Assembly: GCA_016791115.1 (NCBI GenBank)
Contig: JAEUNL010000053.1
Span: forward strand, 1-64,000
Direction of reading: 5' to 3'
DNA length: 64,000 nucleotides
Source of the DNA: Rhodocyclaceae bacterium
Lineage (GTDB): Bacteria > Pseudomonadota > Gammaproteobacteria > Burkholderiales > Rhodocyclaceae
The notes beneath the pieces are model-generated. The model was not told the origin of the DNA and did no database searches. It worked only from the letters and a program-made list of their open reading frames with translations. Position 1 is the stretch's first letter; every line of letters starts with the position of its first letter. Both the position numbers and the translations under genes were made by a program. Shown piece by piece: positions 56,613 through 62,069 of this stretch.

Positions 56613-57782
56613 TCAGCCCCCCAGGCCGCGCTGAAGGTCGGCCTTCAGGTCCTCGACCGACTCCAGTCCGACCGCGATGCGCAGCAGCCCTTCGGTAATG
56701 CCGGAAGCCGCACGGGCCTCGGCGCTGATGCGCCCGTGCGTCGTGCTGGCCGGGTGGGTGATCGTCGTCTTGGTGTCACCGAGATTGGCGGTGATCGAGA
56801 TCACCTTCGTGCTGTCGACCACACGCCAGGCCGCGTCGCGCCCGCCCTTGACCTCGAAGCTGACGATCGCGCCGCCACTCTTCTGCTGGCGCATCGCCAG
56901 CGCATGTTGCGGATGCGATTCCAGCCCGGGGTAATGCACGCGCGCAACCTGCGGCTGCGCCTCGAGCCAGCGCGCGAGTTCCAGCGCGGCGGCCGATTGC
57001 GCATCCATGCGGATGCGCAGCGTCTCGACCCCCTTGAGGATGACCCACGCATTGAAGGGCGACAGCGTCGGGCCTGCGGTACGCAGGTACTTGAACACCT
57101 CGTCCATCAGCGCATCGTTGCCGACCACCGCGCCGCCGAGCACGCGGCCCTGGCCGTCGAGATACTTGGTCGCGGAGTGGATGACGATATCGGCACCGAG
57201 TTCCAGCGGTTTCTGCAGCGCCGGCGTGCAGAAGCAGTTGTCGACCACCAGCAGCACGCCGGCATCCTTCGCAATCTGCGCGAGTCCGGCGATGTCGACG
57301 ATTTCGGTCAGCGGATTCGACGGCGTTTCGACGAATATCAGCTTCGTCTTCGGCGTCAGCGAGGCGCGGTAGGCGTCGAGGTTCGTCGCGTCCACGAAGG
57401 TGGTCGCCACCGCGAACTTGCCGATGATGTTCGAGAACAACTGCTGGGTCGCGCCGAAGATGCTGCGCGAGGCGACGATGTGATCGCCCGCCTGCATCAA
57501 CGCCATCACCGTGGCGAGGATCGCCGACATGCCGGACGCGGTGGCCACGCAGCGCTCGCCGCCCTCAAGTGCGGCAAGGCGCTCCTGCAGCATGTTCACC
57601 GTCGGGTTGGTGAAGCGTGCGTAGACCATTCCCGGCGCCTCGCCCGAGAAGCGCGCTGCCGCCTGCGCGGCATTCTCGAAAACAAAGCTCGAGCTGAGGT
57701 AGATCGCCTCACCGTGTTCGCCGAACTGGCTGCGCACCTGGCCGGCACGCACCGCGAGGGTGTCGAAATCGAAATCGGACAT
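56613..57782 (-). CDS. metZ: O-succinylhomoserine sulfhydrylase
   Basis: A PLP enzyme that makes homocysteine from O-succinylhomoserine and sulfide in methionine synthesis. It has 389 residues from MSDFDFDTLAVRAGQVRSQF at 57782; the open frame extends to 58043 without family likeness. The PLP Lys lies in DIVIHSATKYLDGQGRV, and YARFTNPTVNMLQERLAALE is typical of the Cys/Met family. A GGGAG ribosome site abuts a hairpin. It normally follows purF; here the intron separates them. Confidence 0.93.
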   Translation of the reverse strand: MSDFDFDTLAVRAGQVRSQFGEHGEAIYLSSSFVFENAAQAAARFSGEAPGMVYARFTNPTVNMLQERLAALEGGERCVATASGMSAILATVMALMQAGDHIVASRSIFGATQQLFSNIIGKFAVATTFVDATNLDAYRASLTPKTKLIFVETPSNPLTEIVDIAGLAQIAKDAGVLLVVDNCFCTPALQKPLELGADIVIHSATKYLDGQGRVLGGAVVGNDALMDEVFKYLRTAGPTLSPFNAWVILKGVETLRIRMDAQSAAALELARWLEAQPQVARVHYPGLESHPQHALAMRQQKSGGAIVSFEVKGGRDAAWRVVDSTKVISITANLGDTKTTITHPASTTHGRISAEARAASGITEGLLRIAVGLESVEDLKADLQRGLGG

Positions 57783-57815: not shown

Positions 57816-57855
57816 CAAAACAAAAACCCGTCCAGCTAAAAAGCTGAAACGGGTT
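57816..57855 (-). terminator. Intrinsic terminator (purF terminator or metZ attenuator)
   Basis: Minus strand: AACCCGT pairs with ACGGGTT, with an inner stem CAGCT/AGCTG, then TTTTTGTTTTG. It lies 11 bases beyond the intron's 3' end. With the intron removed it would stand about 50 bases after the purF stop, a normal distance for a purF terminator, but it is also in the metZ leader. Confidence 0.8.
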
Positions 57856-57907
57856 CGTTTCGCTTTGTCGGGTAAGGATGACGCATTGCTGCGCCACCCT
57901 CCCCTAA

Positions 57908-57941
57908 GAACCGGGCGTGCGAGTTTCCCCGCACCCGGCTC
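57908..57941 (-). ncRNA. Group II intron domain V
   Basis: A 34-base hairpin beginning GAGCCGGGTGCG and ending CGCACGCCCGGTTC with a GAAA-type terminal loop region, matching the near-invariant catalytic domain V. It lies 20 bases after the RT stop codon, as expected. Confidence 0.88.
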
Positions 57942-57961
57942 AAGCGTCCCAAAGCCTCCCA

Positions 57962-59650
57962 CTAAAGGGAGCCGGCTTCCAACTTCCAACCGTTCGCATG
58001 CAACTGCCGGTGGCAATTCGGATGTAACAGCGCCAGATTGCACTGTGCGTCGCTGCCGCCTTGCTCACGCGGGACCCGGTGATGGACATGCCATCCAGTT
58101 TCCGTTGTGATCGGCTCGCCACAGACCTCACAGCGCTTGTCCTGACGCCACCAGAGGTTCAGCAGTTTCCGCCTGCCCGCCACAGATCCTTGCATCTTCA
58201 GACCAAGACGGTCTTCGAAGTAAGTTTCCCATTGCGGGTCAAACGGATTCGCCTCACCCTTAATCTTTGTGTATCGGCGGATCTTCGTATCACTGGCTTG
58301 CACCAGCGACCGGAATTTCCGTCCTCCGTCCGAATCGGTGGTCCGGGAAGCAAACACCCAATTTCGGGCGCCAATTCTCCCAAAATATTTCACTTTGGTC
58401 CAACCAGCGCTTTTGTTCGGGTGCCGTCGCCTAGCCCACTGCCAGGTCTTCTGCCACAACCAAGCGTCGATCGCGGCGAATGTTTTGGAGGCATTCACCG
58501 TGCGGTGATAGTTGGCCCACCCGCGAACTACCGGGTTGAGCTTCAGAATCAGCGTCTCCTGCTTCGCGGTTCTCTGCTCAGCGAAGATCGACTTCACTTT
58601 GGTCTTGAAGGCTTGGACGTTCTTCTTGGACGGCGTGATGATGATTGCCATCCTGAACTTCCGCACCGTCTGACCCAGAAAGTCGAACCCTTCTGCGACA
58701 TGCGTGATCCGGGTCTTCTCTTGCGAGAGCTCCAGACCCCGAGTGGCGAGAAACGCTGCCACCATCGGTTTGACCTCGTTTTCCAGCAACTCTTTCGAGC
58801 TGCCGGTGATGATGAAGTCGTCCGCATAGCGCACCAGATTGACCTTGTTCTTTCCGGACCTGCGATTGCCCTTCGACCCGAACCGGGCCTCCAGTTCCGC
58901 TTCCAGCCCGTCCAAGGCCCAATTGGCCAACGTCGGCGAGATGATGCCCCCTTGCGGGGTGCCCGCCTCGGTCGGGAAGAGCCGTCCCATTTCGACATAC
59001 CCGGCCTTCAGCCACTTGCGCAGGATCTCCCGGTCCATGGGGACGTTCGAGACCAGCCAGTCATGACTGATGTGGTCGAAGCAGCCTTTGATATCCCCCT
59101 CGAGCACCCACTGCGCCTTGTCGCGACCGCTCAGCACCGTGTGGCACTGTTGGATCGCATCGGCCGTGGAGCGCTCGGGCCGAAACCCGTAGGAGTTCCG
59201 ATCCGCGCACGTTTCCGATACGGGCGACAAGGCGAGCAGATGTAGCGCCTGCATCGCCCGGTCGCGCAGCGTCGGGATGCCCAAGGCGCGCGTCTTGCCG
59301 TTTGCTTTCGGGATATGCACCCGTCTCAGTGGCAGCGACCGATAGCCGCGCCGTCCGAGTGTTTCGATGGCTTGACGCTTCGCCTCCGGGACGGACCATA
59401 TTGCGCGATCCACGCCCGGCGTGTGCTTACCTTGGTTTTCGGTCACCCGTTTCACGGCGAGTGCTTTGCCGCTGAACGAGCGGGTCAGGGCGCGTTGCAG
59501 GGCTTTCACCCTGCGCCAATCCCCGACCTGGGTTGCCTTCACGATACGCGCCTGCAGCCGTCTCACGGTTCCATGGATTCTGGACCAGTCGAGCTGGTGC
59601 CAGCCCAGTTGGGCCGCAGAGGCCGCAGACGCGGTCGATTGCGTACTCAC
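57962..59650 (-). CDS. ltrA: Group II intron reverse transcriptase/maturase with HNH endonuclease
   Basis: The intron-encoded protein of 562 residues. The start is GTG at 59650, with GGAGG 7 bases upstream; the open frame beyond it is intron RNA. RT motifs are IPTLRDRAMQALHLLAL (about 125), VLEGDIKGCFDHISHDW (182-198), TPQGGIISPTLANWALD (231-247) and YADD (275-278). The maturase X domain is about 350-440 (LNPVVRGWANYHRTVN). The C-terminal HNH domain runs from about 506 with CEVCG, HVHHRVPREQGG and LLHPNCHRQLH. All catalytic residues look intact, so splicing and homing are plausible. Confidence 0.95.
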   Translation of the reverse strand: MSTQSTASAASAAQLGWHQLDWSRIHGTVRRLQARIVKATQVGDWRRVKALQRALTRSFSGKALAVKRVTENQGKHTPGVDRAIWSVPEAKRQAIETLGRRGYRSLPLRRVHIPKANGKTRALGIPTLRDRAMQALHLLALSPVSETCADRNSYGFRPERSTADAIQQCHTVLSGRDKAQWVLEGDIKGCFDHISHDWLVSNVPMDREILRKWLKAGYVEMGRLFPTEAGTPQGGIISPTLANWALDGLEAELEARFGSKGNRRSGKNKVNLVRYADDFIITGSSKELLENEVKPMVAAFLATRGLELSQEKTRITHVAEGFDFLGQTVRKFRMAIIITPSKKNVQAFKTKVKSIFAEQRTAKQETLILKLNPVVRGWANYHRTVNASKTFAAIDAWLWQKTWQWARRRHPNKSAGWTKVKYFGRIGARNWVFASRTTDSDGGRKFRSLVQASDTKIRRYTKIKGEANPFDPQWETYFEDRLGLKMQGSVAGRRKLLNLWWRQDKRCEVCGEPITTETGWHVHHRVPREQGGSDAQCNLALLHPNCHRQLHANGWKLEAGSL

Positions 59651-60545
59651 TTGCTTGCCTCCTTCGAGTTGTCCCGTTCGGAGGCAAGCACAACCCCAGT
59701 GGGGCCGAGCTTGCCCCCTCGGGGATGTTTGCGGTTCTTCAGACTCTCTCGTGACGAGAGACCACGCGGAAGTCAGCGCTCTTTCGAGCGGGATGATGTT
59801 GCAATCCCTATCCATCCCATTACAGGACGGCCTTCGCTTGCTCCGCGATCCTTTACCCGCATGCCCATGGGCCTTCCTTGCGGTCGGCTTTGCCCTGACG
59901 GGCGGACGTACGGGCTTACCCTGTTCCATACGAGTAACACGCGTGGGTTAGACCTTGCCTATGCGCCGGTGGCGTTTGCGTCAGCGTTCCCCAACCAGCT
60001 TATGGGAGAACCCGCCACCTACCATTTTGGTTCAGGCCAGTCAGCAGCTTTGGCCTGTCAATAATCACGACGCGTTAGACGGCAATTCACGTGAGTTGGT
60101 CATACCACCCAGCCTGGCACCTCATCCGCCTCGCTGCTAGCAGAATCACGTCACGCCCCTCGCAGGGCATGGCATACACCTCGGGGTGTGGTTACGTTGT
60201 CAGGATCGCTTGGCACCTCTTCGTTGCCGAAGACGCACCGATCCCTAGGCTACCGCTGGCTGAACAGCGGGTCTCGCTACCGGATTGCCCGGTGAGACGA
60301 TTACTCGCATGGCTTCGCGCCATGTCAGGTGGGTGATCAGGACTTGCGCCCCAACTTCCCACACAACTTAAGGGCTGGGTTCCAGACCGAAGTCTGAGGT
60401 GCTCCCAGCTACCTTTACTGGCGACCTCAGGTCGCACAGCTGGATTTATTGAGCGCCCGCAAGCTGAATCAAATCGGCGCGTTGAATCGCAATCTACGCG
60501 CCGCACAGGGCGCTGTCAATCCTTCAACCCTGAACAGTTGCCCGC

Positions 60546-62069
60546 CTAGTGGGTCATCACGAGGTTGAGGTCGAGTTGCCCCCCTTCGCCATCGTCCGGT
60601 CCCGCCTTGGCACCGTCCTCGCGTGCCATCTCGACATTGTTCAGGTATTCGGCCGTGACGTCACCGGTGACATAGTGACCGTCGAAACACGATGTCTCGA
60701 AATGCGAGATTGCGGGATTGACATCGCGCACCGCCAGCTTCAGATCCTCGATGCTCTGGTAGACCAGGCCGTCTGCGCCGATCTCGCGGCAGATTTCCTC
60801 GTCGCTGCGATGGGCGGCAATGAGCTCGTTGCGCGAGGGCATGTCGATACCGTAGACATTGGCGAAACGCACGGGTGGCGCGGCCGATGCGAAATACACC
60901 TTGCGCGCACCGGCATCGCGCGCCATCTGCACGATCTCGCGGCTGGTCGTCCCGCGCACGATGGAATCATCGACCAGCAGCACGTTCTTGCCGCGAAATT
61001 CCTGCGCAATTGCATTCAGCTTTTGGCGCACCGATTTCTTGCGCGTTGCCTGGCCCGGCATGATGAAGGTGCGGCCGATGTAGCGGTTCTTCACGAAGCC
61101 TTCACGGTACGGCAGCCCGAGCCGGCTGGCGAGCTCCATCGCCGACGGGCGACTCGAATCGGGAATCGGCACCACGGTATCGATGTCCATGCGCGGCGAC
61201 ATCTGGCGGATGCGTTCGGCGAGATACTCGCCCATCTTCACCCGCGTCTCGTACACCGAGATCCCGTCGATCAGCGAATCCGGCCGTGCCAGATAGACGA
61301 ACTCGAACATGCACGGCGCATGAAGCGTGCGTTCGGCGCACTGGCGGGCGATGAAATTGCCGTCGATGTCAATCAGCACGGCCTCGCCCGGCGCGACGTC
61401 GCGCAGCACTTCGAAACCCAGCGTGTCGATAGCCACGCTTTCCGAAGCCACCAGATACTCGGTGCCGTCCTGCGTTTCATTGCGGCCGATGATCAGCGGA
61501 CGGATGCCGAACGGGTCGCGGAACGCGAGCAGGCCGTAGCCGGCAATCATCGCCACCACCGCATAGGCGCCGCGCACCCGCCGATGCACCCCGGCGACGG
61601 CGCGGAAGATGGTGTCGTCGTCGAGACGGAAGCCCGGTGCGGCAGCCTGCAGTTCGTGCGCCAGCACGTTGAGCAGCACCTCGGAATCCGAGTTGGTGTT
61701 GATGTGCCGCAGATCCTGCAGGTACATCTCGCGCTTGAGCTCGTCGGCATTGGTGAGGTTGCCGTTGTGCGCGAGCATGATGCCGAATGGCGAATTCACG
61801 TAAAAGGGCTGCGCTTCGCTCGCGTTGTACGCGGATCCCGCCGTCGGGTAGCGGCAGTGACCGATGCCCCAGTTGCCGACCAGGTCGCGCATGTTGCGTG
61901 TGCGGAATACGTCGCGCACCAGCCCGGGCCCCTTGTGCATGTGGAATTTCGCGCCATCGGCCGTGGCAATGCCTGCGGCATCCTGCCCGCGGTGCTGCAG
62001 CACCTGAAGTCCATCGTAGAGGAGCTGGTTAACAGGCGTGGTCGCGACGACGCCGAGGATTCCGCACAT
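60546..62069 (-). CDS. purF: Amidophosphoribosyltransferase
   Basis: It catalyses the first step of purine synthesis, making phosphoribosylamine from PRPP and glutamine. It has 507 residues. The nucleophile Cys2 is in MCGILGVVA, and the glutaminase domain includes [17 protein letters not shown]. The PRPP loop in the C-terminal domain reads [20 protein letters not shown]. It follows cvpA by 9 bases. The intron begins 39 bases after its stop. Confidence 0.98.

Follow-up and report, generated by a model that had tools for sequence, protein, structure and literature searches.

What does a group II intron interrupt when it lies in the spacer between two genes, and what would its removal restore? 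The question is raised by a 64,000-nucleotide stretch of contig JAEUNL010000053.1 (Rhodocyclaceae bacterium, assembly GCA_016791115.1; hereafter the window), in which such an intron separates purF from a downstream gene that we infer, from its family and its place, to be metZ. An earlier note, made from the letters alone, had lodged the intron between purF and the terminator of purF. We consider another answer highly probable: by homing, the intron has entered the core of a SAM-II (class II S-adenosylmethionine) riboswitch that lies in the metZ 5' leader; it parts U44 from A45 of the aptamer, and its splicing would restore the sensor.

Identity and boundaries of the intron

Taken by itself, the intron belongs to a known type; what is new is its home in a riboswitch core. 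It consists of the following parts:

57867..60437, minus strand: group II intron, 2571 nt, GTGCGACC...ACCCGAC
60118..60271, minus strand: domain I core, Rfam group-II-D1D4-7 (RF02012; 120.7 bits, E 8.4e-26)
57962..59929, minus strand: intron-encoded protein, RVT_N/RT (YADD)/maturase/HNH, 655 aa (open reading frame and Pfam; 6me0, E 5.7e-195)
57867..57943, minus strand: domains V and VI (RF00029, 63.2 bits, gathering 40)

The two RNA matches and the open protein agree with the earlier description of an intact element, and the intron is predicted to be active in splicing. The intron-encoded protein (IEP) carries RVT_N, reverse transcriptase (RT, with YADD), maturase and HNH domains (TIGR04416, 374 bits, cut-off 300; Pfam RVT_1, RVT_N, GIIM and HNH matched), in line with the RT-HNH protein of the earlier note. 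Also upheld were the 3' end ACCCGAC, at 57867 and in agreement with AY, the orientation in the direction of transcription, and the location 11 nt ahead of a terminator hairpin, before rather than after it. A search for other copies found the intron once in the source genome (assembly 92% complete). The nearest IEP with a solved structure is that of 6me0 (residues 95-646), the match to the GsI-IIC RT being far weaker (E 3.9e-38). The entries 6me0, 6mec and 8fli, which we take to be the T.el4h group IIB intron ribonucleoprotein (RNP), thus offer the solved system most like the window intron, whose lineage may be CL/IIB-like. We know of no riboswitch target for an intron RNP of the 6me0 type. A match below threshold to the Rfam 'DUF3085 RNA' (34.5 bits, gathering 40.6) was also seen in the 5' part of the intron, at 60325-60414 on the minus strand.

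The 5' end had to be moved. The earlier note had set it at the GTGCG of 60506, 39 nt after purF; the true 5' splice site is 60437/60438, 69 nt further inside, and the distance from the purF stop codon to the intron is 108 nt. At 60437 the intron reads GTGCGAC, in agreement with GUGYG. Alignment with related introns in tRNA-Gly genes (see below) gives the same start, GTGCGACC..GTCGC, and the match to intron-free SAM-II leaders ends exactly at 60438. The upstream GTGCG was rejected because the exon-binding sites EBS1 and EBS2 together form only 4 of 12 pairs with the exon that it would define, and because relatives, too, have the two elements seen in the segment 60438-60506, a promoter-like site and a SAM-II aptamer; this GTGCG lies in the spacer of the promoter-like site (TTGACA-17-TAGATT).

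The exons as two halves of a predicted SAM-II riboswitch

The sequence that follows purF was compared with that of 29 intron-free relatives of the same bacterial family. A SAM-II aptamer and a terminator lie between purF and metZ in seven of them, laid out as GCGCCGATTTGA..CAGCTTGCGGGCGC..AAATnCAGCTAAAGCGA (with small variants in some), followed by a hairpin rich in G+C, with a run of T, and then by metZ; the other 22 are without such an element by eye. One of the seven, L137, is above the threshold of the Rfam SAM_alpha (SAM-II) model (40.1 bits, gathering 36). The window carries the same stretch in two pieces, ..AAATCCAGCT|GTGCGACC...ACCCGAC|AAAGCGA... An nhmmer profile built from the seven relatives matches the 5' exon of the window over model positions 2-45, ending at 60438 (44.8 bits), and on joining 60438 to 57866 the match grows to positions 2-52 (57.0 bits). 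The joined window keeps 40 of the 41 columns that are invariant in the seven. The exon junction predicted by the earlier note occurs in none of the 29 spacers (0/29); the corrected junction is matched. The two halves are:

60438..60481, minus strand: 5' exon with SAM-II P1, L1 (GATTTGA), the 5' strand of P2 (TTGC), L3 and G42-C43-U44 (profile, 44.8 bits)
57860..57866, minus strand: 3' exon with the 3' strand of P2, A45-A46-A47-G-C-G-A (joined exons, 57.0 bits)

The insertion divides GCU|AAA and so separates U44 from A45 in the SAM pocket. According to PMC3764141, the pocket comprises U10-U12, U20, U21, G22, C23, G42, C43, U44, A45, A46 and A47; U44 makes contact with the adenine of SAM, and A47 with the methionine portion of the ligand. 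All 13 nucleotides are present in the joined window (UUU, UUGC, GCU|AAA), the numbering having been transferred via the conserved words GAUUUG, UUGC and GCUAAA; one relative, L134, is without one pocket U (GAGTTG). A P2 pairing scheme of our own was dropped for the P2b assignment given in the same portion of PMC3764141. The joined exons thus have the sequence features of a SAM-II riboswitch, and they are predicted to bind SAM. The hairpin that had been ascribed to purF follows the SAM-II riboswitch upstream of metZ in the intron-free relatives, so that excision would yield a riboswitch and terminator in the metZ leader instead of a restored purF 3' end.

No SAM_alpha match was obtained in the source genome, a result that is uninformative alone since the control found nothing either, and a permissive pattern for an uninterrupted SAM-II gave three matches there, none SAM-II-like by eye. 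As a separate observation, the spacers of L117, L118, L120, L121, L134 and L138 contain sub-gathering matches to Rfam Bp2_287 (RF02424, 'Burkholderia sRNA'). They lie on the strand opposite the SAM-II leader in six of the seven loci, which suggests that Bp2_287 may be the reverse complement of the SAM-II/metZ leader.

Recognition of the riboswitch by the intron

The exon-binding sites of the intron and the intron-binding sites (IBS) of the 5' exon are:

60438..60443, minus strand: IBS1 CCAGCU (-6..-1), 6/6 pairs with EBS1
60446..60451, minus strand: IBS2 CAAUAA (-14..-9), 6/6 pairs with EBS2; compensatory change in RYN_582 (see below)
59995..60000, minus strand: EBS1 AGCUGG, hairpin loop (by eye; the same loop is GCUUGG in 7/7 aligned tRNA-Gly introns)
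60059..60064, minus strand: EBS2 UUAUUG (position by eye from the tRNA-Gly intron alignment; pairing; covariation)

At the corrected site the two guides form 12 of 12 pairs, all Watson-Crick, a fit that is unique among the 127,972 positions of both strands of the window; with wobbles counted, two positions reach 12 pairs, the corrected site included. The guides were also matched to 37 intron-free SAM-II sites (the seven relatives plus 30 fetched ones, many of them near-identical). These sites have a mean of 10.7 pairs (range 9-12) versus a background mean of 5.18, with 2911 of the 127,972 window positions reaching 9, and the guide therefore fits the riboswitch consensus; the empty site of the L121 type reaches 12/12 pairs with wobbles counted. 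By eye, EBS1 and IBS1 covary between the SAM-II and the tRNA-Gly introns (AGCUGG/CCAGCU vs GCUUGG/CCAAGC). Another loop, AAAGCUGCUGA, was rejected as EBS1 because introns at other sites, such as L088, L092 and L094, keep it unchanged or nearly so.

The same insertion in a second genome

A scan of genome contigs, in which 80 of 128 relatives were kept, identified one close relative of the intron in the metagenome-assembled genome Betaproteobacteria bacterium RYN_582. Its IEP (on contig L032) is 74% identical to that of the window, and those of the other 79 are 61% identical or less. The insertion is at the same nucleotide, with the 3' half on L032 (ACCCGAC|AAAGCGAGGG, then the terminator and metZ) and the 5' half on L191, a contig found by a pattern search of the RYN_582 genome; L191 carries purF, a promoter-like site (TTGACA-17-TAGTTT, by eye), the SAM-II 5' half and GGCT|GTGCGACC. 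The overlap of the two contigs is exact over 127 nt, and a score of 57.6 bits was obtained for the joined exons. Between the two genomes the EBS2/IBS2 pair shows one compensatory change (UUAUAG/UUAUAA in RYN_582 vs UUAUUG/CAAUAA in the window), and EBS1 of RYN_582 forms 3/6 pairs with the window exon. No second copy of the intron was found in the RYN_582 genome, where the three other matches are fragments (31-39%).

Divergence between the window and RYN_582 (NG86, with dS near saturation) is dN 0.186 and dS 1.36 for the IEP, an indication that selection acts on this protein, and dN 0.232 and dS 1.25 for metZ. In the IEP tree the two are joined (100/99) and adjoin the tRNA-Gly clade (92/82, not starred). 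In the metZ tree the window groups with the intron-free L120 (97/90) and RYN_582 lies elsewhere, though placing the metZ genes of the window and RYN_582 together is not rejected by the approximately unbiased (AU) test (p 0.3). This is compatible with vertical descent of the insertion or with separate homing. The same base in two genomes, together with the fitted guides, makes the riboswitch core a likely retrohoming site.

The metZ leader and a proposed mechanism

The leader and its flanking genes comprise, besides the exons:

60546..62069, minus strand: purF (amidophosphoribosyltransferase), upstream neighbour (open reading frame; Pfam GATase, Pribosyltran)
60491..60519, minus strand: promoter-like site of the metZ leader, TTGACA-17-TAGATT, with the decoy GTGCG (pattern search)
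57825..57855, minus strand: terminator hairpin of the metZ leader (-17.9 kcal/mol)
57832..57844, minus strand: terminator strand GCUUUUUAGCUGG, complementary to CCAGCU|AAAGC over the exon junction (duplex energy)
56613..57782, minus strand: putative metZ (O-succinylhomoserine sulfhydrylase-like, Cys_Met_Meta_PP), downstream gene (open reading frame; Pfam, 477 bits)

Minus the intron, the purF-metZ spacer measures 192 nt. The promoter-like site has 10 of 12 matches and is weak alone (one found versus a mean of 0.8 in shuffles); TTGAC is visible before the aptamer in six of the seven SAM-II-bearing relatives. The metZ SAM-II riboswitch of S. meliloti is predicted, in the accessible part of PMC9373788, to act by SAM-induced termination, and by analogy the metZ leader of the window may work in the same way. 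Its antiterminator duplex, in which the 3' pseudoknot strand CCAGCUAAAGC pairs with GCUUUUUAGCUGG, has an energy of -16.6 kcal/mol, reached by none of 1000 shuffles, and in L121 the antiterminator is likewise clear (6/1000).

We propose that the intron homed into the SAM-II core inside the P2b pseudoknot helix. The precursor would be without the aptamer and this helix because P1, L1, the 5' strand of P2 and L3 are in one exon and A45-A47 in the other. Pairing of EBS1 with IBS1 and of EBS2 with IBS2, in L3 and P2, would guide splicing, which would bring the 13 pocket nucleotides back together and make the antiterminator strand CCAGCU|AAAGC continuous again. Splicing would then presumably bring back the response to SAM, and SAM control of metZ transcription would depend on it. 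As the terminator lies 11 nt past the 3' splice site, the decision to terminate would be taken in the nascent, unspliced transcript: the polymerase would be past the hairpin before removal of the 2.6-kb intron is likely, and the nascent RNA would probably have no functional sensor when it reaches the terminator. The intron therefore probably weakens or uncouples the control of metZ by SAM.

Several observations weigh against this account. The unspliced window has no Rfam SAM_alpha match, and six of the seven SAM-II-bearing relatives are themselves under the threshold of that model (23.7-31.0 bits against 36). One in 1000 random 3' joins likewise reaches 57.0 bits, and the one invariant column that deviates in the window has C for T just after P1. 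The guides leave room for doubt too, as EBS1 of RYN_582 pairs with its own IBS1 at five of six positions, with one mismatch, and EBS1 of the window also forms 5/6 pairs with the RYN_582 exon. The antiterminator is borderline in L118, L138, L137, L120 and L117 (21, 33, 39, 42 and 67 of 1000 shuffles as low, respectively) and absent in L134 (601/1000). Lastly, the unspliced 3' exon also pairs with the terminator, at -10.5 kcal/mol alone and -16.8 kcal/mol with the intron end, which leaves the argument for uncoupling weak.

Alternative explanations

Three other views of the locus must be weighed. That the intron starts at the GTGCG of 60506 and its excision restores the 3' end of purF is scarcely credible: this GTGCG does occur and the hairpin is located as claimed, but the view is contradicted by the poor pairing at that exon (4/12), by the promoter-like site and aptamer that intron-free relatives share in 60438-60506, and by the tRNA-Gly intron alignment, which sets the 5' end at GTGCGAC..GTCGC. 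The intron might instead be a relic that no longer splices or moves, in which case the riboswitch would be broken and metZ would be expressed by read-through, leaky termination or another promoter. The single copy found in each of two genomes and the absence of the intron at this place from all 29 other relatives read at purF would fit. We think this quite improbable, as it is opposed by the open IEP with RT, maturase and HNH, the strong domain I and domain V matches, the 12 of 12 exon pairs, the low dN/dS relative to RYN_582 and the compensatory change in EBS2.

One might also speculate that the arrangement is adaptive, with splicing and SAM sensing controlling each other in a splicing-gated riboswitch, which appears unlikely to us. 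The L3 and P2 nucleotides recognised by EBS1 and EBS2 are also those that enclose SAM in the folded aptamer, and the ligand could conceivably, although this is doubtful, bias forward or reverse splicing. CCAGCU is common to IBS1 and the antiterminator strand, EBS1 (AGCUGG) is identical in sequence to the terminator segment pairing with that strand, and the shared site in two genomes and the purifying selection on the IEP point the same way. It is a tentative and rather unlikely extension that the intron lineage is specialised on the SAM-II core and maintained so that SAM sensing at metZ works only on spliced leaders. Equally hard to favour is a competition between SAM folding and EBS/IBS pairing for L3 and P2, with the timing of splicing setting metZ read-through. 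The sequence overlap, however, follows from the site with no need for selection, and the conservation of the site elsewhere (GCTAAAG intact in 29 of 30 sites, the 5' half in 245 of 395 genomes; see below) argues that the riboswitch normally does without an intron. We therefore retain homing into the SAM-II core, with splicing restoring the sensor, as the preferred explanation.

Relation to known systems

The usual locations of group II introns are genes, other mobile elements and terminators. Class C introns insert just after terminators (available text of PMC8919778). The window intron, too, is near a transcription terminator; unlike them it lies before the hairpin, is guided to an aptamer by EBS1 and EBS2, and has an IEP with HNH, and it does not fit class C. 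The S. meliloti metZ SAM-II riboswitch belongs to the same ligand class, precedes the same gene and shares the predicted termination platform; in contrast to the window, no intron is mentioned in the part of PMC9373788 that is available. The nearest published case that we found is the Clostridium tandem of a cyclic di-GMP (c-di-GMP) riboswitch and a group I intron, where a single leader likewise contains both a riboswitch and a self-splicing intron (PMC3073962, in part). There, as far as that portion of the source goes, a group I intron stands beside a riboswitch that controls the choice of splice site, whereas the group II intron of the window cuts the aptamer itself. Among the open-access papers listed for group II introns together with riboswitches or tRNA genes, no title or abstract opening describes such an intron within a riboswitch or a bacterial tRNA-Gly gene, the subscription literature being mostly outside this search. 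To our knowledge, class C IEPs are without HNH.

The locus offers a natural test of whether a ligand sensor can be rebuilt in vivo by the excision of an intron. A further question that it poses is how a co-transcriptional terminator switch operates if its aptamer has to be spliced first.

Frequency of the site

Within the family, 395 genomes were scanned for the SAM-II 5' half, and 245 have it. When 30 such sites were fetched, GCTAAAG was intact in 29 and a one-base variant was seen in one. The single match to the 5'-half pattern in the source genome (92% complete) is the one at this locus. A pattern for the 5' junction matched in 6 of 399 genomes of the order and 3 of 398 of the phylum, sets that overlap; it revealed no further riboswitch-lodged introns, as the window is by eye the sole SAM-II in each set and the others look like chance. 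The second case was found not by the junction pattern but by the contig scan and the search of its own genome.

Related introns in tRNA-Gly genes and other sites

In the same family, introns whose proteins are 57-60% identical sit in tRNA-Gly genes, as does one in Methylocaldum (L054). The joined exons form tRNA-Gly(CCC) in all seven introns tested (ARAGORN). The split gene, cut in the anticodon stem, is found in L004, L005, L054, L148, L149, L150, L151, L152, L153 and L155, where L004, L149 and L150, outside the ARAGORN set, were assigned by the same 5' junction only. The 5' exon ends ..CTTCCCAAGC and the 3' exon reads T..GGGTTCGA.. Of the three clade members without a tRNA-Gly label, L149 and L150 have the 5' junction of the tRNA-Gly introns, and L154 lacks it. 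These introns have the same 5' and 3' ends and EBS layout as the window intron and also split a folded RNA; they differ in that the target is a tRNA anticodon arm and EBS1 is GCUUGG rather than AGCUGG. In seven of them the loop GCUUGG faces 5' exons ending in CCAAGC, and EBS2 is AAGCU in 7/7, opposite AGCUU in six exons and UGCUU (4/5 pairs) in L148. That this tRNA-Gly(CCC) clade adjoins the two riboswitch introns suggests a wider intron branch targeting conserved folded RNAs.

Two further recurrent home sites were noticed among the relatives. Five Paraburkholderia introns (L036, L046, L050, L052, L055) have one common 3' exon, AATTCACTCTTGGACTAAGCCGCCGAGG, and L003 (G008) and the pair L033 and L034 (gamma proteobacterium HdN1) have similar, coding-like 3' exons, CCTTGCAACAAGCC / CGCTTCAGCAAGCGG.

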